Source of the DNA: Verrucomicrobiota bacterium
Lineage (GTDB): Bacteria; Verrucomicrobiota; Verrucomicrobiia; Chthoniobacterales; Terrimicrobiaceae
Length of the DNA stretch: 64,000 nucleotides
Assembly (NCBI GenBank): GCA_026398275.1
Contig: JAPLTF010000014.1
Span: forward strand, 24,713-88,712
Reading direction: 5' to 3'
The notes under the pieces are model-generated. The model was not told where the DNA came from, did not search any database, and saw only the letters and a program-made list of their open reading frames with translations. Position numbers and translations under genes: made by a program. Below are positions 1-11,571 of the stretch, one piece after another. Position 1 is the stretch's first letter, and every line of letters begins with the position of its first letter.

Positions 1-2084
1 ACAGCAACCTTCTGGCCCTGGAAAAATCCGAGCAGCTGGATCTGCTCCGGGGCGCGGAGCTTTACAGGGACATGCTCGGGCATGTGGATCACGCCATCGG
101 GAGCACGGAGCTGATCACCGGGCGGCTGCGGGCGCTCGCCCCCGGGCAGGCGTTCACCGTGGAGAACGCGCTCGACCGCACCCTGCTTGACGCGGCGGAG
201 CGCCGGTTCCCGCGTGCGGCGTCCGCTCCCGTCACGATTGTGTATGGCAGCGGAACGAAGACCCACGATGCGGATTTTGCGCTGGTCGCGAACCCGCTCG
301 CCCGCGTGATGGCAGAGCATCCATCCGTCCGGCTCCTCCTGGCGGGCCCGCTTCTTTTGCCCGCCGCCCTGGAGCCGTTCCGGGAGCGGGTCATCCGGAT
401 TCCGCTCATGGGATTTGAGGACTATCTCTCCACGCTGGCCCGCTGCGACATCAACCTCGCGCCGCTGGAGCCGGGCCTGTTCAACGATGCCAAAAGCAAC
501 ATCAAATTTCTTGAGGCATCCGTCCTGGGGCTGCCCAGCATCTGCTCGCCCCGGGAGGAGTTCAAAAATGTGATCAGGGACGGGGAGAACGGGTTTCTTG
601 CCGGAGACGACGAGGAGTGGCACCGGAAGCTGACCGCCCTGGTGGCCGATCCGGACCTGCGGGCGGGCATGGGTCGGCGGGCGCGCCAGGAAGTGCTGGC
701 CACCCATGACCCGCAGATCCGGACGCGGCAGCAGCTCCAGCCGCTTCTTGAGGTGGCATTCCCGGCCGTCGAGGCGGCCGGAACGGAGCCTGGATCACCG
801 CTCAAGGTTCTTGTGGTCAACGTCCTCTTCGCGCCGACTTCCTTCGGCGGAGCAACCTGCGTGGCCGAGCAGATGAGCCTCGAGCTTTCCCGGCTTCCGC
901 AAACCGAAGTCGCGGTCTTCACAGGCACGGTCAATCCCGAAACGGAGATGAACTCCCTGCATTGCTACGAGTGGAACGGCATCCCCGTCTTTGCGGCGAA
1001 GCTTCCCGGCGCGGGCTCCCCGCGCGATGACTACGAGAACCCGGCGATGGCTCGCCTTTTCATGGAGGTGCTCGATTGCGTCCGCCCGGATGTCGTCCAT
1101 TTTCACTCCGTCCAGATTCTGTCGGCTGAACTGGCGCGAGTCTGCCAGTGGCGGGAACTACCCTACGTGATCACGCTTCATGATGCCTGGTGGATCTGCG
1201 AAAGGCAGTTCATGGTGATGGCGGACGGACACTATTGCGGCCAGCGTGGGGTGGATCCGCTGAAGTGTGTCGGCTGCACTGCGGACACGGGGATTACGAC
1301 GCGGCGCTTCAACTATCTTTGGGACATCCTCGCGAAAGCTCACCACCTTTTGACTCCGGGCGCATTTTTTCGGGAATTGTATATCCGGACCGGCGTGGAT
1401 GCGGACCATATCAGCGTCAATAAGAACGGGGTGCTGCAGCCGGCAGGCCGCCCGCGCCAGGCCCGGGATGAGGCGGCCGGACGCTGCGTGACATTTGCAT
1501 TTGTGGGAGGCCGCGCCACTCACAAGGGATACTTCTGGCTCCTCGAGATTTTCCGGGAGATCAGGGAAAGCAATTTCCGGCTGAAGATCGTCGATCTGGA
1601 CAGGAAGTTCGGCGGGCGGTCCGTTTTTGCCAGGGAATGGTCCGTAGCCGGGGAGGTGGTGATCGCGGAACCCTACACCCAGGACACCCTGGAAGACTTC
1701 TATTCCGACGTGGATGTCCTGCTCTTCCCTTCGCTGTGGAAGGAGAGCTTCGGGCTGACGGTCCGCGAAGCCCTGCTGCGGGACATCTGGGTCATCTCGA
1801 CGGACTGCGGGGGGCCGGCGGAGGATCTGCGCGACGGCGTGAATGCAAACATTGTTCCGATGGGCGACAGGGGCGCTTTCCGGGACGCGGTGGTCGCGAT
1901 TCTGCGGCAGCCAGAATGGCTCAGCGCTTATAGAAATCCGCACAAGTCGGAAGTTCGTTTGTTTCCGGAGCAGGCTCTCGAGACCAGGGAGTTTTTGGCC
2001 AGGGCGGCTCAAAGGCAAATGCCATCGGAAAAAGAGGAGCAAATTTCTCATATCGAACATCCGCAGGAATCCAATGATGAATAA
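1..2084 (+). CDS. Tandem-domain GT4 glycosyltransferase, 5'-truncated by window edge
   Basis: The frame is open from base 3 to the left edge, so the ATG at 72 is internal and the true start lies outside the window. Two GT-B glycosyltransferase units are visible. The first, about residues 1-220 of the tracked ORF, has a C-terminal nucleotide-sugar half with CDINLAPLEPG and NIKFLEASVLGLPSICSP. The second, about 240-610, starts with KVLVVNVLFAPTSFGGA, has TLHDAWW and ends with the GT4 signature PSLWKESFGLTVREALL. The first unit closely resembles the middle GT4 domain of the protein at 3510, so the two share an ancestor. The acidic tail is not recognised. The protein is probably cytoplasmic and adds sugars to a surface glycan; donor and acceptor cannot be read from sequence. 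Its stop overlaps the next gene's start. Confidence 0.85.
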   Translation, partial: SNLLALEKSEQLDLLRGAELYRDMLGHVDHAIGSTELITGRLRALAPGQAFTVENALDRTLLDAAERRFPRAASAPVTIVYGSGTKTHDADFALVANPLARVMAEHPSVRLLLAGPLLLPAALEPFRERVIRIPLMGFEDYLSTLARCDINLAPLEPGLFNDAKSNIKFLEASVLGLPSICSPREEFKNVIRDGENGFLAGDDEEWHRKLTALVADPDLRAGMGRRARQEVLATHDPQIRTRQQLQPLLEVAFPAVEAAGTEPGSPLKVLVVNVLFAPTSFGGATCVAEQMSLELSRLPQTEVAVFTGTVNPETEMNSLHCYEWNGIPVFAAKLPGAGSPRDDYENPAMARLFMEVLDCVRPDVVHFHSVQILSAELARVCQWRELPYVITLHDAWWICERQFMVMADGHYCGQRGVDPLKCVGCTADTGITTRRFNYLWDILAKAHHLLTPGAFFRELYIRTGVDADHISVNKNGVLQPAGRPRQARDEAAGRCVTFAFVGGRATHKGYFWLLEIFREIRESNFRLKIVDLDRKFGGRSVFAREWSVAGEVVIAEPYTQDTLEDFYSDVDVLLFPSLWKESFGLTVREALLRDIWVISTDCGGPAEDLRDGVNANIVPMGDRGAFRDAVVAILRQPEWLSAYRNPHKSEVRLFPEQALETREFLARAAQRQMPSEKEEQISHIEHPQESNDE

Positions 2085-3381
2085 CCTTTCCGCCCGGCCA
2101 TGGCATGTGTCGCTCCCGGCTCTCAGAAACTTTTGTTGCAGCTCCCGTGCGCTCTGGCTTCATGGATTTCTGATCATCTCGTTGACGGTGGCGCGCCAAC
2201 CCAAGGCGCTTTTTTCCGCACAGTTCTGGGCGGAGGACGGCACGTATTGGTATCGGGAAGCCTATGAGTCCGGATGGGCTTGCATTTTCGAGCCTCACAC
2301 TGGGTATCTCCAGTCGGCCTCCCGTTTAACGGCATTGCTCGCGGTTCAGTTTCCGCTTCTCTGGGGGCCTGTCCTCTTCGCACTTGTAGCCTTGATCATC
2401 CAAGTCCTGCCGCCGATCTTTTTGCTTTCATCACGGTTTGATGCAGTTTTGCCATCCCGCACCGCGCGTCTGGTTCTGGCCTATTTTTATGTCGCTCTAC
2501 CCAATTCCTGGGAGATCCACGTCAACCTCACCAATGCCCAATGGCACCTGGGGCTTCTAGGATTTCTGATCGTCGTTTCCCAGCGTCCCTCAGGCTGGGC
2601 GGAATGGGCGTTTGATCTCTTCTTTCTCACGCTCGCCGGTTTGTCCGGGCCATTTGTCATTATTTTGGCCCCACTTGCGTGGCTGCACTGTTTTCAGAAG
2701 CACAGCCGCCATGGGGTGGTTCGCGCACTGTTACTCAGCGCACTGGCTGTCGCCCAGATTCTGTTCCTTGTGTTTGCCACGCGCCCGGCTTACTCGCTTG
2801 GCGCGAGCGGCTTTCTCTTCACCCAGATCATTTCAAATCAGATCGTGCTGGGTGCTGGAATAGGAGAAAACTTCACGCGCCAGTTGATCGCCAGGCCGAT
2901 CTGGAGCCTGCCATGGATGCCGCTGTTTATGGCGCTGGCGGCAGGCTTGCTTGTCGTCGGAGCCTTGGTTCATGGGCCCCAGATTTATCGTCTGTTTGTT
3001 TTGTTTGCCTCTCTGCAACTTGCAGCGGCGCTGGTTTCTCCTCAAATATCGATGACCGAGCCTCAATGGCTATCGATGACCCTGCCTGGTTGCGGCGGGC
3101 GCTATTTCTTTCTGCCCATGCTCGCCTGGTTTGCTTCTCTGGTTGTCCTGGCTTCGATGCGCTGGCGGATAGCGCGGATCATCGCAATAGTCCTCATGGC
3201 TCTTAGCGTGATTGGAATCTTTGGCGATTGGAATCAGCATGTATCCCGGCAAGCCGGCTTTGAGGCGGCAGCGAGGGCTTTTGACAGGGCCGACGCCGGA
3301 GCCCAGATGACATTTCCGATCAATCCAGACGGCTGGTCGATGACATTGACCAAGCATCCGCCGGGCGAACGTGCCCGATGA
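2074..3381 (+). CDS. Polytopic membrane protein, GT-C glycosyltransferase-like
   Basis: A 435-residue protein with about ten hydrophobic segments. I start it at ATG 2074, which overlaps the upstream stop by 11 bases; the longer tracked ORF from 1843 only shadows the preceding gene. After the first membrane segment comes the loop QFWAEDGTYWYREAYESGW, with acidic residues placed as in the first external loop of GT-C (PMT/ArnT-like) enzymes, and later WEIHVNLTNAQWHLGLL. These features and its neighbours suggest a lipid-linked-sugar-dependent transferase or a glycan-processing membrane protein. No characterised family is recognised with certainty. The overlap with the GT4 gene indicates co-translation. 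Confidence 0.7.
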   Translation: MMNNLSARPWHVSLPALRNFCCSSRALWLHGFLIISLTVARQPKALFSAQFWAEDGTYWYREAYESGWACIFEPHTGYLQSASRLTALLAVQFPLLWGPVLFALVALIIQVLPPIFLLSSRFDAVLPSRTARLVLAYFYVALPNSWEIHVNLTNAQWHLGLLGFLIVVSQRPSGWAEWAFDLFFLTLAGLSGPFVIILAPLAWLHCFQKHSRHGVVRALLLSALAVAQILFLVFATRPAYSLGASGFLFTQIISNQIVLGAGIGENFTRQLIARPIWSLPWMPLFMALAAGLLVVGALVHGPQIYRLFVLFASLQLAAALVSPQISMTEPQWLSMTLPGCGGRYFFLPMLAWFASLVVLASMRWRIARIIAIVLMALSVIGIFGDWNQHVSRQAGFEAAARAFDRADAGAQMTFPINPDGWSMTLTKHPPGERAR

Positions 3382-3509
3382 CCCCGCCTTTTCCCGGCTT
3401 GTGCAGGAATCGTTTTCCTTTCAGGAATCGCCGGCATTCACTACGGTGACATCGAAAAATCCGACACCCCGAATGCCACCACCAACGAAGATTCTTTCCC
3501 GGACTGACG

Positions 3510-6500
3510 ATGGACGGTGATCTCCCAAGCAGCGGCTTTCCATTTCCCCTGATCTCCGGGGCGACTTTTTGGCGGCCCAACTGGGTCAGGATGTCTGCAT
3601 GGACCGAGCATGTCCCCTTTGCCTTCTGGGTGACCGAGGCCCTGCGGCCGGGTGTGTTCGTCGAGCTCGGCACCCACGCCGGAACATCCTACTGCGCGTT
3701 CTGCCAGGCGGTGGACACGCTGAACTCGGAAAGCAGATGCTTCGCCATCGACACCTGGGAGGGGGACGCCCATGCGGGCTTCTACGGGGAAGAGGTGTTT
3801 GACGCGCTCTCGCGTCACAACGAAATCAACTACCTGCATTTTTCCACCCTGGTCCGCGCGAAATTCGACGATGCGGTCTCCCGTTTTGCGGATGCTTCCA
3901 TCGATCTCCTGCACATCGACGGGTATCATGGCTATGATGTTGCGCGGCACGATTGGGAGACGTGGGCACCGAAGCTCTCGTCCCGGGCGGTTGTTCTGTT
4001 TCACGATACGAACGCCCGCAATGACGGTTTCGGAATCCACCGCCTGTGGTCGGAGTTGACCCCGGACCATCCTCACTTCGAGTTTTACCACGGCAGCGGC
4101 CTTGGGGTGCTTGGAGTCGGGCCGGATGTGCCGGAGAGCGTCCTCGCCCTCTTCAGAGCCTCGGGCGATGCCGCACAGAGCACTTTGATCCGGGGGGTTT
4201 ATGCCCGCCTTGGAGGTGAGATCAGACGGGGGTGGATGGACGGCAATCACATTCGGGAAATGGACACCCTGTTCGCAGAGCAGGCGGGGCATATCGACCG
4301 GCAGAAGGAATTGATCGATGTGCTGACCATCGACCTCCGGGCCAGGGAGAGCCGCGTGGCGGCGCTGGAAAAATCCCTGTCGCGGGAGCGCTCGGAGTTT
4401 TTTATCCTGCGTTCGCAGCTGGATCAGCGAACCGCCCGATTGTCCGGCCAATCCGATGCCCTGCGCGCCCAGCTGTCCGCGGAATCCGGCGCATTGCGCA
4501 CGCAGTTGGAAAATCTGAGCGCGCTCCAGTCGATGCCGCACGGGCGATGGGAGCATTTTCTCAAGAAATGGGGAACGAGCCTTCGGAAGCGCCGGCAGGA
4601 GGTTCGGGATTCGATGTTCAGAGCCATGGTTGCCGCGGGGTTAACCAGACGCCACAGGAAATTTCAACGCCAGCGGAAACTCATCAAACAATCGGGGTTG
4701 TTCGACAAGGGATTTTACAGGCACGAATACAAGCCGCTGCTCTCACGGGCGGCCGATCCGGTGCTGCACTACCTGCGTTGCGGGGCGGCGATGAACTGCA
4801 ATCCGAGCCCGGAGTTTGACACGCAATGGTATCTGGGCAGGCATCCCGAAGTGGGCGCAGCCATGCAGAATCCGCTCGTCCACTTCATCGAGCACGGGGC
4901 CGATGAGGGGATGGAGGACGAAGGAAATCCCAAGGATCCCTGGGCGCTGGCCGGGAACAAAATCCGCGTGGCATTTTTGACGGGCGAGCCGGATACTCCG
5001 GGCTCGGTCTACCGCGTGGAAATGCCTGCGGAGGCCCTCAATTCCAGGGATTACCATGTCCTGATCGTCCGGGGCGACCAGGTCGGCGCGCATCGCGACG
5101 CGCTCAGCTGCGCGCAGGTTTTGGTGATCTGGCGAATGCCTTGGAGCGGGGAGCTGGAAGAGCTGCTGCGCCGGAGCCGGGATGCCGGACAGAAGATCAT
5201 CTTCGATGCCGACGACTACCTCTTCGAGCCGGAGATCGCCAAGGTGCGGATCATCGACGGCATTCGAACCCAGGGCCTTGCCGAGGACGCGGTCGCTGAC
5301 CTGTTTGGCGGGTTTCAAAAGACCCTGCAGGCGGCCGATTTTTGCACGGCCCCCACCGGGACTCTCGCCGCCCGGATGCAGGCGTTCCGCAAGCCCGCCC
5401 ACGTGATTCCCAACGGCTTCGACCGGAAAACCTACAAGACAAGCCGGCTGGCGCTCGCCGAATGCAGATCGCGACAAAGCGACGGAAAAATCCGGATCGG
5501 ATACGCCGGCGGCACGAGGACCCACCAAAAGGATTTCCTGCGGGCCTCGGCGGCGGTCGCACGGATTCTTCGCAAGCACCCGAACTCGCTGCTCGTCCTG
5601 TTCTTTCAAAATTCCCAGCCCGCAGTGCGACGCTGTTTGGAGATTGCGGAATACCCGGAGTTTGCGGGGCTGGAGTCCCGGATCGAATGGCGGCAAAGCG
5701 TTCCGTTCCGTCAGTTGCCGGAGGAACTCGCCCGCTTCGACATCAACCTCGCACCGTTGGAAACCGGGAATATTTACTGCGAGGCGAAGAGCGAGCTGAA
5801 GTATTTCGAGGCGGCGCTGGTCGAGGTGCCCACGATCGCCTCCCCGACGCTGCCCTATGAGGAGGCCATCCGGCACGGGGAGACGGGATTTCTTGCGCGA
5901 ACCGAAGATGACTGGTTCGAGTGTCTCGACGTGCTCGTCACCCGGAACGATGTCCGCGAGCGGGTGGGAAAAAATGCCTTCCTGGATATCTTGTGGAAAT
6001 TCGGGCCGGAACGCCGGGCCAGGCAGATGGGTGGCCTCATCCGGCAGCTTTTGGGGGGGGAACCGGCCGCCGCCGGATTCTTCGGGGCGGAGATTTCCCG
6101 CTCCCGTTCCGCGAGGCCTTCGCTTCCCGTGATTCCCGGGCTTGAGGTGATATTTGCGGACGGGGACCGGTCGGCGTCCGAAGCGGACATCATTGTTCCG
6201 CTCTTCAATTACGAGCAATACATTGAGGAGACGCTCGATTCGATCGGGGCGCAGTCCCTGGAGGCCAAAGGCCTGATCGTGATTGACGACTGCTCCCCGG
6301 ACAGCTCGCGCGCGCTGGCTCAGCAATGGATCGGGCGGAACAGGCACGCCTTCCGGCATGTCGCCCTGCTCAAAACCAAGGCCAACGCCGGACTGGCGCT
6401 GGCGCGGAACGCCGGGTTTTCATTTTCCGATGCACCTTTTGTGATGCCGGTGGATTCGGACAACCTCCTCCAACCCGACTGCCTCTCAAGATGTCTGGAG

Positions 6501-6890
6501 GCGCTGGCCCACAGCGAGGCGGCGGCGGCCTACCCGTCCATTCACGAATTCGGGGAGCACGAGGGCGTGCGAAGCTGCGGGGAATGGCATCCCAGCCGGT
6601 TTGTCGCAGGCAACTTTATCGACGCCATGGCTTTGATCAGGCGCTCCGCCTGGGCCGCCGTGGGAGGGTATGAGCCGATGCTCGGCTGGGAAGATTACGA
6701 CCTCTGGGCGAAATTCGTTGAGAATGAGTTTTGGGGGATCTGGGTGAGAGATGCGAGCGCGCTCTACCGAACCCATGGCGAATCCATGTCCCGCACAATG
6801 ACCGATCCGGAGCTTAAGGAAAAGCTTGTCGCGGCCATGCGGTCGAAACATCCGTGGATTCAGAATCCGTTCGGATCAAGCGTCTGTTGA
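3510..6890 (+). CDS. Methyltransferase / GT4 / GT2 trifunctional fusion protein
   Basis: An 1126-residue multidomain protein. Residues about 1-230 form a class I SAM methyltransferase of the Methyltransf_24 type: FVELGTHAGTSYCAF is the SAM loop, DLLHIDGYHGYD the acidic motif, and VVLFHDT follows. About 265-345 is a Leu/Arg/Gln-rich coiled coil. About 385-470 carries repeats around HYLRCGA and HFIEHGA with WYLGRHPEV, a module often attached to glycosyltransferases. About 485-850 is a GT4 unit with DADDYLFEPEIA, VIPNGFDR and a C-terminal half matching the first gene of the window. About 890-1126 is a GT2 domain with ADIIVPLFNYEQY, the DxD-type VDSDN and GWEDYDLW. The order suggests one polypeptide that transfers two sugars and methylates the chain, as in O-antigen capping systems. 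That role is inference. Confidence 0.85.
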   Translation: MDGDLPSSGFPFPLISGATFWRPNWVRMSAWTEHVPFAFWVTEALRPGVFVELGTHAGTSYCAFCQAVDTLNSESRCFAIDTWEGDAHAGFYGEEVFDALSRHNEINYLHFSTLVRAKFDDAVSRFADASIDLLHIDGYHGYDVARHDWETWAPKLSSRAVVLFHDTNARNDGFGIHRLWSELTPDHPHFEFYHGSGLGVLGVGPDVPESVLALFRASGDAAQSTLIRGVYARLGGEIRRGWMDGNHIREMDTLFAEQAGHIDRQKELIDVLTIDLRARESRVAALEKSLSRERSEFFILRSQLDQRTARLSGQSDALRAQLSAESGALRTQLENLSALQSMPHGRWEHFLKKWGTSLRKRRQEVRDSMFRAMVAAGLTRRHRKFQRQRKLIKQSGLFDKGFYRHEYKPLLSRAADPVLHYLRCGAAMNCNPSPEFDTQWYLGRHPEVGAAMQNPLVHFIEHGADEGMEDEGNPKDPWALAGNKIRVAFLTGEPDTPGSVYRVEMPAEALNSRDYHVLIVRGDQVGAHRDALSCAQVLVIWRMPWSGELEELLRRSRDAGQKIIFDADDYLFEPEIAKVRIIDGIRTQGLAEDAVADLFGGFQKTLQAADFCTAPTGTLAARMQAFRKPAHVIPNGFDRKTYKTSRLALAECRSRQSDGKIRIGYAGGTRTHQKDFLRASAAVARILRKHPNSLLVLFFQNSQPAVRRCLEIAEYPEFAGLESRIEWRQSVPFRQLPEELARFDINLAPLETGNIYCEAKSELKYFEAALVEVPTIASPTLPYEEAIRHGETGFLARTEDDWFECLDVLVTRNDVRERVGKNAFLDILWKFGPERRARQMGGLIRQLLGGEPAAAGFFGAEISRSRSARPSLPVIPGLEVIFADGDRSASEADIIVPLFNYEQYIEETLDSIGAQSLEAKGLIVIDDCSPDSSRALAQQWIGRNRHAFRHVALLKTKANAGLALARNAGFSFSDAPFVMPVDSDNLLQPDCLSRCLEALAHSEAAAAYPSIHEFGEHEGVRSCGEWHPSRFVAGNFIDAMALIRRSAWAAVGGYEPMLGWEDYDLWAKFVENEFWGIWVRDASALYRTHGESMSRTMTDPELKEKLVAAMRSKHPWIQNPFGSSVC

Positions 6891-6907
6891 GGGGGCCCGA
6901 CCATCGG

Positions 6908-8353
6908 ATGAGCAATCACGACATCAACCCCGGGCCCGGGCGGAAAATCCCCTCTTGGATTTTCAGCGTGCCGCCGCTGTTTGTCTTCCTGCTCTGGTGG
7001 GCGGCTCTGTTCCCGGGAATGATGAACGCCGATTCCATTTACATGTGGGGGGAGGTCGTGTCGGGTTCCTTCGATGAAATGCACACGGCGTTCGTCCCCA
7101 TTCTCTATTCGGTCCTGGCGAAAGTCTGGGGAACCCCGGCGGTGGTCGGCCTGGCTCAAATCCTGTTCCTCGTCCTCGTTCTCAACTATCTCTTCCGGGT
7201 GTTGAAATCGATGGGGGCACCGGACGGGGCGCTCGCTCTGATCTCCCTCTATTTTTGTGTTTCGCCGATGATCGGCGCGACCCTTGTGACATTGGAAAAG
7301 GACATCCCGTTCGGCGTTCTGATGCTTCTGCTTTCCGCGTATGGGATCCGCATCGTCGAATCCGGCGGCAGGTGGCTCGGATCCACCCGGAACCTGGCGT
7401 GCCTGTCTGCTTCGCTGGCTCTCCTGTCACTCTGCCGGCACGAGGGAATTATTCCGGCCGTGGCATTTGTCATCGCCCTGCTGGTGTTTTACTTCCCGGA
7501 ATGGAGGCGCATCACGGCCGTCCTGGCGTCTGGCGCGCTGTGCGCGCTCATCGTCCGCGGCCCCATCTATGAGTGCTATCATGTGAACCGGGATATTTAT
7601 CGCCAGGTTGCCATCAAGGAGTGGTGTGATCTGGCGGTAGCTCGCGCCAATGGCGGCACGTTTTCCGACGCTGAAAGGGCCGTTTTCAGCAGCATGATGC
7701 CGGAAGAGGCCAATAAGCCGGCATTCGATAACTACAGGCCTTTTGCCAGCATGATGTCGGCCAAAGTAAATCTTCCAGAGCTGTATGAGGGACATCGGGA
7801 AATTCATTCCATTTGGAGGCGGTCCTTGAGAAACAACTGGCCGGTCCTGTTGGGGAATCTCCCGAAGTCCGGGTCGCTTGTCTGGCAGATCTTTGAACCG
7901 CCGGGCTGCTGGACCTACACCGTGCACCTGGTCCCCGTGCCGCAGGGCATCGATGACAGCAGCCTGGGGCTCCATCTGGCCCACCCTCTTCCGCTGGTCG
8001 AAGGAATCCTCAGGCGGCTCCTGGAAATCACCGACGCACGGTTTTGGAAGTCCGTGCTCTACCGGCCGGCGCTGTATTTATACGCGTCTGTTTTTTCCGT
8101 TTTGACCGCCTGCATTCTTGAGAGAAAGCCCGCGCTATCATTGCTGGTGCTTCCCCTGCTGGCGCATGCCATGTTCCTGTTCCTATACATCTCCGACCAG
8201 CATTCCCGGTATCTGTTTTATGCATTTCTCATGGCCCCGGGCCTGGTGGCTTATTCCCTGATAAAAGTCCGGTCCCCCGGTGCCGGGACTCCGGCGCTCA
8301 CGGGTGCCGGGCGCTTTTGTCGATCCGCTTCCGGATGGAACGGATCAAGTTGA
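6908..8353 (+). CDS. Polytopic membrane protein of surface-glycan locus
   Basis: Start chosen at ATG 6908, 17 bases after the previous stop; the tracked start at 6854 lies inside the preceding gene. The 481-residue product has about ten transmembrane segments. The loop after the first contains NADSIYMWGEVVSGSFDEMH, with the acidic residues expected in GT-C-fold proteins, followed by DIPFGVLMLLLSAYG and CRHEGIIPAVAF. A soluble insert lies around residues 230-360. It resembles DUF6020-type membrane proteins, but I cannot assign a reaction. The last 56 bases run antisense through the end of the convergent gene at 8298, where the encoded tail (RSPGAGTPALTGAGR) is low-complexity. Confidence 0.65.
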   Translation: MSNHDINPGPGRKIPSWIFSVPPLFVFLLWWAALFPGMMNADSIYMWGEVVSGSFDEMHTAFVPILYSVLAKVWGTPAVVGLAQILFLVLVLNYLFRVLKSMGAPDGALALISLYFCVSPMIGATLVTLEKDIPFGVLMLLLSAYGIRIVESGGRWLGSTRNLACLSASLALLSLCRHEGIIPAVAFVIALLVFYFPEWRRITAVLASGALCALIVRGPIYECYHVNRDIYRQVAIKEWCDLAVARANGGTFSDAERAVFSSMMPEEANKPAFDNYRPFASMMSAKVNLPELYEGHREIHSIWRRSLRNNWPVLLGNLPKSGSLVWQIFEPPGCWTYTVHLVPVPQGIDDSSLGLHLAHPLPLVEGILRRLLEITDARFWKSVLYRPALYLYASVFSVLTACILERKPALSLLVLPLLAHAMFLFLYISDQHSRYLFYAFLMAPGLVAYSLIKVRSPGAGTPALTGAGRFCRSASGWNGSS

Positions 8354-9236: not shown

Positions 9237-10393
9237 GGTCCTGCGTCCGGTGACACCGCCCTGTTCTTGCGGGAAACGACTTCCTGATAAAGTGCGAGGA
9301 ACCTGCCGGTTTGGTGGTTCAAGGAATGCTGCCCGGCCAGCCTGCGCGCGGACGCTCCCATCTTCGAGCGCAGGGCCGGATCGAGCAGCACCCGCATCTT
9401 TTCGGCGAGCGCCGCAACGTCGGCGGGATCGGCGAGAAGGAACCCCTCCTCCCCGTCAGTCATCAGCTCCGAGACACCGTTGAAGCGCGTTGTGATGAGC
9501 GGAAGCCCGCAGGCCAGCGCCTCAATGGCCACAAGGCTGCAGGGATCATACCACGTGGGATGCACGCAGACATCGGCCGCCGCGTAGCAGGGGCGGATAT
9601 CGCCGAGAGCTTCCAGGAATGTGACGCGGTCCGAAATGCCCAGCTTCCGCGCCAGCTCCACAAATGGCCCGGGCCGCTTTCCGCCCGCAATCACAAGGCG
9701 GGCCGGGGCACCCCCGGCGGCCAGCACGGCAAGCGCCCGGATCGCCGACTCCGCGTTCTTGAGCCGGAGGTTGTGCGCGACAAGGAGGAAGACCGTTTCG
9801 TCGCCGGAGGCACCGGTCATCCTGCGCGAGGCCTCCCGAATTGCGGCGCAATGCTGCGGCGAAAACCGCTCCTCATCCACGCCGTTGTGGATCAGGCGCA
9901 GGCGCTCCCGCGGGATGCCGTGCAGCGCGTGAAAATGCTCCAGCACCATCTGCGACACCGCCACCACGAGGGCCGCCGGATCGGCGAGCTCGCGCCGCTC
10001 GATCTCCGCCTGCTCGCGATACCGCCGCTCGCGCCAGAACCGGATCTGCCTCCAGCGCGGGATCCGCATGAGATTGTGTTCCCGGAACGCCCTGGTCGAG
10101 CCGCCGTGCGGGTGATAAAGATCGGCATACCAACCGCATCCCATGTCATGGATCACATCGAGCCGCAGGGAGCGCAATACCTGCTCAAACCTTGCGGCCC
10201 GCAGCACGGGAGACGTGACATATTCCACCGGATGCAATACCGGCACCCTTCCGGTGGCCGACGAGGCAAAATCGCACGCGATGACATGCACCTCGTGGCC
10301 AAGCTCCTCCAGTCGCTCCGCAAACTGCCATGTCCAGTTCTCCAGCCCGCCCCTCTGCGGATCAAAATGCTCCAGCACCAGGCCGATTTTCAT
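9233..10393 (-). CDS. GT4 glycosyltransferase, LPS-core type
   Basis: A 386-residue GT-B enzyme. The N-terminus MKIGLVLEHFDPQRGGLENW and the HPHGGSTRAF segment resemble core-LPS glycosyltransferases of the WaaG group. The C-terminal half has LLVAHNLRLKN, a phosphate-binding region, and VHPTWYDPCSLVAIEALACG, the EX7E donor-binding motif of family GT4. It is flanked by 4-base ATGA overlaps with the LpxB-like gene upstream and the GT2 gene downstream, so all three should be one transcriptional and translational unit building the inner part of a lipid-A-linked glycan. Sugar specificity is not deducible. Confidence 0.85.
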   Translation of the reverse strand: MKIGLVLEHFDPQRGGLENWTWQFAERLEELGHEVHVIACDFASSATGRVPVLHPVEYVTSPVLRAARFEQVLRSLRLDVIHDMGCGWYADLYHPHGGSTRAFREHNLMRIPRWRQIRFWRERRYREQAEIERRELADPAALVVAVSQMVLEHFHALHGIPRERLRLIHNGVDEERFSPQHCAAIREASRRMTGASGDETVFLLVAHNLRLKNAESAIRALAVLAAGGAPARLVIAGGKRPGPFVELARKLGISDRVTFLEALGDIRPCYAAADVCVHPTWYDPCSLVAIEALACGLPLITTRFNGVSELMTDGEEGFLLADPADVAALAEKMRVLLDPALRSKMGASARRLAGQHSLNHQTGRFLALYQEVVSRKNRAVSPDAGP

Positions 10394-11571
10394 GGGCGGG
10401 CGGGCGGTTCGCCGAGCATCTCCTCGAGGATTTCCACGGTCCGCCCGGTGGCGCGGAACGGCAGATTTTCTCCAAGGTGGGCGCGGATTTCCTTGTAGCC
10501 CTCCTCCATCAACCGCCGGTCCTCCTTATTTTCGAGCAACCTTTTCACCCCGGCGGCAATGGCATCCGGGCGGCAGTTCAGTCCCAGAAGTTCGGGCACG
10601 AGCGGGCGCTGGAGGATGATGTTCGGCATGGCGATGAACGGGATCTTCTTCCACATCCAGAGGAGCAGCCATTCGATCCGGCTCACCCAGCCAAGGTCAT
10701 AAACGGTCACCTGCGGAGCGCCGGCGACGGCGGCCTCCAGCGTCGCCGAGCCGGTTTTGACCACGGCAACATCGCACGCCAGCAGAGCGTCGGTCGCGCG
10801 GTCGACGACGACCTGGATGGAAGGCGGGAAGTGGGCCCGGGCCATCCGCACCAGCGGAGCGGGCACCGGCACGAGGAATTTGATCGAGGGATCGCGTGAC
10901 AGGACCCTTGCCGCAGCCGCAAGGCGCGGGCCGAGGACCCGGATTTCCGAAGGCCGCGATCCCGGAAGAAGCGCGACCAATTTCTCTCCCGCCTCCACGC
11001 CGAACTCCCTCCTCAGGAGCTCGCGGCTGCGCGATCCCCGGACAGATTCCAGAAGCGGGTGACCCACCCAGTCCGCACGGCAGCCCGCATCCGATAACCG
11101 TTTTGCCGACCACTCAAATGGCGTTGCCACCCGGGTGACGAGGGGCGCGAATTGAAGCCCGGCTTTCCCGGTTCTCTGCCAGGACCTCGGGGGGAAAAAG
11201 TAGAGGGTGGGCACGCCTGCCTTCCGGAAAAATGTCAGCTTTCTGCAATTGAATCCGCCCCAGTCGCAGAGCACTGCCGCATCGATCGGGTGGGCGTGCA
11301 AAAACCGGTGCAGCTTGAACGACAGCCATCGCGCCCGCAGGTAGATGAGCAGGACCGAGATCAGGCCGATGGCGCTGCAGTTTGTCGTGTCGGCAATCCA
11401 CGTGCCGCCGGAGCGCTTCACGACCCCGCCCAATCGCCTGCCCCCGAGCGCATGGAGGACGATGTCCGGGTGCCGCTCCGCCAGACGTTCGGCGAGTTGC
11501 GCGGTGCAGGCATCCCCGGACAGATCGCCGGCGATAAACAGGACTGAGCGGCGGTGGTTGGAACCGGGCAT
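10390..11571 (-). CDS. lpxB: Lipid-A-disaccharide synthase (LpxB family)
   Basis: A 393-residue protein of GT19/LpxB type. LpxB joins UDP-diacylglucosamine and lipid X to form the lipid A disaccharide at the inner membrane. Visible family motifs are LFIAGDLSGDACTAQL (usual AGExSGD), CDWGGFNCRKL, WVGHPLLESV, LLPGSRPSEIRVL, KTGSATLEAAVAGAPQVTVY and a C-terminal PNIILQRPLVPELL. The canonical central PSVWAW..R block is replaced by YFFPPRSWQRTGKAG, so this may be a divergent or paralogous member. It heads a coupled three-gene unit. Other lipid A genes (lpxK, lpxD) sit elsewhere in this window in unrelated contexts. Confidence 0.78.
   Translation of the reverse strand: MPGSNHRRSVLFIAGDLSGDACTAQLAERLAERHPDIVLHALGGRRLGGVVKRSGGTWIADTTNCSAIGLISVLLIYLRARWLSFKLHRFLHAHPIDAAVLCDWGGFNCRKLTFFRKAGVPTLYFFPPRSWQRTGKAGLQFAPLVTRVATPFEWSAKRLSDAGCRADWVGHPLLESVRGSRSRELLRREFGVEAGEKLVALLPGSRPSEIRVLGPRLAAAARVLSRDPSIKFLVPVPAPLVRMARAHFPPSIQVVVDRATDALLACDVAVVKTGSATLEAAVAGAPQVTVYDLGWVSRIEWLLLWMWKKIPFIAMPNIILQRPLVPELLGLNCRPDAIAAGVKRLLENKEDRRLMEEGYKEIRAHLGENLPFRATGRTVEILEEMLGEPPARP

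Follow-up and report, generated by a model that had tools for sequence, protein, structure and literature searches.

The setting of surface sugar chain length is understood in a handful of enterobacterial systems. In ORF6 of Klebsiella pneumoniae O7, a methyltransferase (MT), a kinase, a CBM, a central coiled coil and two GT2 glycosyltransferases (GTs) follow one another in a single polypeptide, as shown biochemically, and the coil has been described as a molecular ruler (PMC11231755). WbbB of O12, going by its description in the same paper, likewise unites within one chain a terminator, a coil acting as ruler and a pair of polymerising GTs. The WbdD/WbdA system of Escherichia coli O8 and O9a combines methyl-type termination with a coiled-coil spacer and GT recruitment near the membrane end (PMC3482155). 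WsaE of Geobacillus stearothermophilus is presented, in the parts of PMC2943079 that we draw on, as one protein with an N-terminal MT and two GT domains that yields a methyl cap, its methylation being independent of chain length in vitro. Here we compare with these systems a fusion protein of a soil bacterium, encoded within a 64-kb stretch of DNA that was analysed as a whole (hereafter the window). By analogy, we propose at a confidence just short of even that it is a methyl-capping glycan assembly enzyme working like a coiled-coil chain terminator.

One reading frame encodes a methyltransferase, a predicted helical spacer and two glycosyltransferases

The fusion gene (3510..6890, + strand) reads as a single protein of 1126 aa, with an ATG start and no internal stop. 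An in-frame stop lies at 3447, no start codon occurs between it and the ATG, and a stop-free match to the frame was found in the whole assembly. Pfam placed Methyltransf_24 (PF13578; MT24) at residues 51-167 (3e-23; 83 bits against a gathering cut-off of 26.3), the C-terminal half of a GT4 (PF13692) at 662-801 (2e-8; 35 bits, cut-off 27) and a GT2 (PF00535) at 894-1020 (4e-24; 85.9 bits, cut-off 23.3), and returned no match in this protein to a kinase or CBM such as O7 ORF6 possesses. At the level of sequence, the MT, GT4 and GT2 assignments are certain. The complete layout is MT24 head, helix/coiled coil, basic helices, FDxxWYL repeats, GT4, GT2; the earlier note had proposed an MT, a coiled coil, a GT4 and a GT2 in one polypeptide, and the uninterrupted frame bears this out, with the coiled coil as the probable rather than certain member.

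Pfam, motifs, alignment and AlphaFold2 concur on the MT24 head (residues 1-240; 3510..4229, +). It retains the class I SAM motifs, with VELGTHAGTSY, AIDTWEGD, acidic D81, LLHIDGYH (including HIDG) and FHD, such that SAM-binding and catalytic-type residues are intact. Fourteen head residues are invariant in 13 homologues, among them V51, E52, G54, S60, D81, I131, D132, L134, H135, D137, H140, D148 and D166. The SAM-binding residues, on which the earlier note had made its proposal depend, are thus all in place, both as motifs and in the 13-homologue alignment, and MT function is predicted. An AlphaFold2 model of residues 1-349 (12 homologues; mean pLDDT 85) showed a Rossmann MT fold and, behind it, a single helix at 245-340. 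Among solved structures, MeT1 of Mycobacterium hassiacum (6g7d/6g80) comes closest both by sequence profile and by fold. It is a polysaccharide O-methyltransferase that methylates methylmannose oligosaccharides, blocking a mannoside OH (PMC9883506); MeT1 differs in being a stand-alone enzyme and in acting on the reducing-end 1-OH of its substrates. We also considered the head as a direct homologue of WbdD and dropped the idea, since a profile of MT24 heads matched 6g7d and CmcI only at E ≤ 1 and returned no WbdD chain.

The helix behind the head (4242..4529, +) comprises ~96 residues at a pLDDT of about 61-92 in the model of residues 1-349 and, at 0.15 nm per residue, would measure ~14 nm. A COILS-type score, computed with a matrix entered by hand rather than with the original program and checked against shuffles, marked 28 residues only, at a borderline P=0.53. 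The heptad signal of 245-341 exceeds what its own composition would give, being reached by 4 of 500 shuffles. A hydrophobicity-only heptad score of the spacer was no better than whole-protein shuffles, and the COILS-type matrix was used in its stead. The structure prediction and coil measurement suggested by the earlier note hence yielded one 96-residue helix with a weak COILS-type signal, and the spacer is probably a coiled coil of up to that length. AlphaFold2 of the full 1126-aa protein (mean pLDDT 68; pTM 0.39) was confident in the MT and GT2 only; because it was poor elsewhere, we made no use of relative domain placement.

Basic helices follow at residues 347-395 (WEHFLKKWGTSLRKRRQEVRD...; 4548..4694, +); they may contact the membrane or a partner, and they mark the junction at which heads and tails are swapped among relatives. 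By sequence, residues 398-470 (4701..4919, +) form two helical repeats of the type FDxxWYLxxxPEVxxxxxNPLxHFIxxGA. In the GT4 module (GT-B; residues 486-845; 4965..6044, +), the form EAKSELKYFEAA, conserved within its subfamily, replaces the classical EX7E. The GT2 module (GT-A; residues 890-1118; 6177..6863, +) carries DSD at 982-984, satisfying the DXD motif, and GWEDYD. Both GTs are present and may act as a polymerising pair.

The surrounding genes are LPS-like in appearance and lack a nearby Wzm/Wzt

The upstream neighbour (3..2084, +) is the 3' part of a 1223-aa protein that begins outside the window (L016:18126) and joins a sulfotransferase-like head, a coil and two GT4 domains; Sulfotransfer_3 matches its head at only 0.015, as opposed to 1e-10 in homologous heads. 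Two polytopic membrane proteins flank the fusion gene: one without family match (1843..3381, +; true start probably after 2084), and one overlapping its 3' end (6854..8353, +) that is GT-C-like by eye, with DUF6020 at only 0.18. An LpxB-like gene, the second of its family in the genome, lies at 10390..11571 (−). The locus further encodes a type I PKS, LpxL-, LpxA- and LptF/G-like proteins, an ABC protein resembling MsbA and a PMT-family protein; it looks lipid- or LPS-like, judging by its PKS, LpxA, LpxL, LpxB, MsbA-like and LptF/G content.

Much of this content lies upstream of the window (L016:3275-16877), where a type I PKS of 2075 aa, a gene for an LpxL-like acyltransferase whose C-terminal 154 aa have no family assignment, and LpxA-, LptF/G- and MsbA-like genes are found; LpxA- and LpxB-family genes also occur elsewhere in the genome. 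This cluster and the LpxB-like gene perhaps constitute a second, PKS-fed, lipid-A-like glycolipid pathway. In another genome (G007), a PKS-LpxL-LpxA-LptFG block precedes an MT11-coil-GT2-GT4 protein and a headless GT4-GT2 protein, so the association with such fusions is not confined to one genome. G010 has a PKS that is 61% conserved; LpxL, LpxA and LptFG were not found on the contig fragment that carries it, and they are absent from the loci of the 38% homologues (G006, G012, G051). As a separate observation, the MT24 protein has a sulfotransferase-like head beside it or close by in three lineages, namely G000 (window 3-2084 plus L016:18126-20000), G317 (L069:7847-9028) and G038 (L019:4274-7300), hinting at glycans that may be both sulfated and methylated.

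Wzm/Wzt genes beside the fusion gene were searched for, and there are none in the 64-kb window or in the 20 kb upstream; the genome's Wzt loci sit on other contigs (C94 and C64). Given this absence from the locus, we do not claim membership in the ABC-dependent terminator family. The main rival to the capping reading builds on this setting: an LPS- or glycolipid-like oligosaccharide would receive one fixed sugar from GT4 and another from GT2, MT24 would methylate one of these sugars, and the coil would merely oligomerise or scaffold, with no length control. A locus with PKS, LpxA/LpxB/LpxL-, MsbA- and LptF/G-like genes and without Wzm/Wzt is consistent with such tailoring, as are the two neighbouring multi-GT proteins, whose caps differ, and the sulfotransferase-like partners recurring in G317 and G038. 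The second protein also speaks against capping in its own right, since with its sulfotransferase-like head and coil two 'terminators' would share one locus. We consider fixed-oligosaccharide tailoring plausible, if rather the less probable way for this protein to work.

The architecture recurs in other lineages, some with an exporter alongside

We surveyed relatives together with a sample of the phylum. The closest named relative is a Chthoniobacter flavus MAG (Verrucomicrobiota), and a scan of genome contigs returned one relative only. Among other Verrucomicrobiota, the order MT24-spacer-GT4-GT2 is complete in G239 (1143 aa) and in G038 (1284 aa, with an additional C-terminal MT11). It is also complete in Roseomonas, an alphaproteobacterium (1514 aa, with an extra MT11; head 53%, tail 45%). 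As the four parts recur in the same order in these three, the fusion did not arise from misassembly; a frameshift or chimeric origin was ruled out by the absence of stops and by full-length relatives in other lineages. The coil is missing from the G317 and G412 relatives, so the family does not consistently include a ruler, and a coil that is short or missing in relatives again fits tailoring.

The neighbours of other MT24 proteins point the opposite way. A Wzt with the cap-binding domain Wzt_C adjoins them in four of 14 lineages (G412, G288, G172, G052), a count to be read knowing that glycan genes cluster anyway and that some flanks stop at contig ends; in G412 the MT24 and Wzt genes share a 4-bp overlap. 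In the full orthologue of G239, Wzm/Wzt are adjacent, without a CBM. We regard the adjacency as suggestive, and MT24 proteins beside a cap-reading Wzt in four lineages argue against tailoring without length control.

Capsule homologues in E. coli differ chiefly in coil length

A plasmid search led to a protein with an MT24 head, a very long coil and FDxxWYL repeats that follows kpsDMTE in E. coli group 3 capsule loci. Via FAM21845 and its BHT24 tags, we matched it to the 'SAM-dependent methyltransferase' of TBA_3/7/8 in PMC10433991, a paper in whose text the word 'coiled' does not occur. This group 3B capsule region-2 methyltransferase (L180, L183-L189) is a true homologue of the window protein, with 42% identity over head and coil start (20-341) and FDxxWYL repeats in common (39% between the window repeats and its C-terminal ones); it differs in its coil region of 414-515 aa in the alleles read, in the lack of a fused GT and in its position directly after kpsDMTE.

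Matches occurred in 17 of 5426 E. coli genomes. The alleles read (L180, L183-L189 = NZ_CP145673, NZ_CP073978, NZ_CP017220, NZ_AP027705, NZ_CP172333, NZ_CP101012, NZ_CP100966, NZ_CP139197) encode proteins of 816, 840, 846, 880, 887, 912 and 917 aa, whose heads are 94-100% identical and whose C-termini are nearly constant, one diverging. Between the 816- and 912-aa alleles, the difference is essentially one clean in-frame indel of 96 residues within the coil, the rest being near-identical; the genes downstream of these two alleles are different. From the sequences, this variation would look as expected of a length-tuned spacer; repeat slippage without selection fits as well. That the alleles differ chiefly in coil length counts against tailoring. 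Collectively, they form a natural ruler-length series.

Heads and tails are exchanged around the coil

Comparison of relatives revealed one tail on differing heads and one head on differing tails, with exchange around the coil and basic helices. MT24 is joined to a GT2-GT4 pair in G010, G317 and G120; G007 carries that same pair behind Methyltransf_11, via a coil. G007 also has a window-type GT4-GT2 tail without a head, the adjacent gene encoding a Methyltransf_11-coil protein. Elsewhere, MT24 occurs with WsaF-type domains (G147) and with GT4 and RgpF (a Rhodospirillum rubrum plasmid). In another genus of the same class, MT24 proteins of ~821-840 aa with two to three coil segments and FDxxWYL-type repeats (L070-L073; G126, G205, G097, G109) adjoin proteins of 267 and 815 aa, with no Wzt nearby. 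Contigs filed as viral contain a 661-aa GT4-GT2 pair (IMGVR_UViG_3300036804_000075; L103:3896-5881; 42%) without MT head, as well as stand-alone MT24 domains of ~200-305 aa with up to 49% identity to the window head (L080-L100).

Exchange at the coil is what would be expected if a cap module were paired with changing polymerases. It could also reflect packaging only, that is, shuffled polysaccharide-locus modules that are co-translated while methylation and elongation stay uncoupled, as the extent of head/tail recombination, the headless tail of G007 and the stand-alone MT24 domains of viral contigs might suggest; we hold this to be improbable, given that the head-coil-GT order is retained in G000, G038, G239, G010 and Roseomonas and that the headless tail of G007 has a Methyltransf_11-coil protein as its neighbour. 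Methylation of a non-glycan substrate, for instance an acyl chain derived from a polyketide of the neighbouring PKS, is very improbable: PKS, acyltransferase and LpxA-like genes do lie upstream and Methyltransf_24 is a broad family that includes non-sugar members, but the head is found in capsule and O-glycan-type loci without PKS and its nearest fold is a polysaccharide methyltransferase.

A candidate mechanism for capping

If the protein does cap, it would be cytoplasmic, probably membrane-associated and oligomeric, and would build and methylate a surface glycan. A lipid-linked acceptor would receive two sugars from the C-terminal GT4 and GT2, possibly as a repeat, and the MT24 head would move a methyl group from SAM to a sugar hydroxyl at the growing end, most likely halting further addition. 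The 96-residue helix would hold the head ~14 nm from the GTs and so put it out of reach of chains below a certain length.

More broadly, and with a good deal less assurance, we suggest that MT24-headed coiled-coil capping modules may make up a family, widespread and as yet undescribed, in Verrucomicrobiota, Alphaproteobacteria and E. coli group 3 capsules. Such modules would set surface-glycan length via a spacer whose length is altered by recombination within the coil. The window organism would have joined its module to a GT4-GT2 pair and brought it into a PKS-containing, LPS-like pathway whose export does without Wzm/Wzt. A cap, a spacer and both GTs in one protein would make the simplest machine for relating ruler length directly to chain length. 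Nature also supplies controls: the GT tail occurs headless or next to a gene for another MT, the head is found on other tails, and in E. coli there are relatives with coils 96 residues apart and almost all else equal.

Comparison with known chain terminators

The earlier note had likened the protein to coiled-coil chain terminators and set it apart by its two fused GTs. The likeness holds for the layout, and is strengthened by MT24-coil proteins beside Wzt-CBM or KpsMT elsewhere and by the E. coli coil-length alleles; it falters on the window locus, which has no Wzm/Wzt, on a coil that is short, and absent in some relatives, and on an MT head without detectable homology to WbdD. The supposed distinction is not new, as O7 ORF6, WbbB and WsaE all combine a terminator with two GTs.

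O7 ORF6 resembles the window protein in its N-terminal MT, central coil and two C-terminal GTs, yet its coil is preceded by a kinase and a CBM, both of its GTs are GT2 rhamnosyltransferases and its locus includes wzm/wzt; the window protein instead has an MT24 head, FDxxWYL repeats and GT4 then GT2, without kinase, CBM or wzm/wzt. WbdD's GTs sit on a separate protein, and its coil-containing C-terminal domain spans ~250 aa versus 96 aa for the window helix. In WbbB, as PMC11231755 describes it, the terminator is a Kdo transferase rather than an MT. WsaE has two rhamnosyltransferase domains and wzm/wzt just upstream, the parts of PMC2943079 that we cite making no mention of a coiled coil. The overall design is hence known already. 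What is new, as far as sequence can tell, lies in the components, the relatives and the genomic surroundings: an MT24 head unrelated to WbdD at the sequence level, the FDxxWYL repeats, the GT4-GT2 tail and an LPS/PKS-like locus without Wzm/Wzt.
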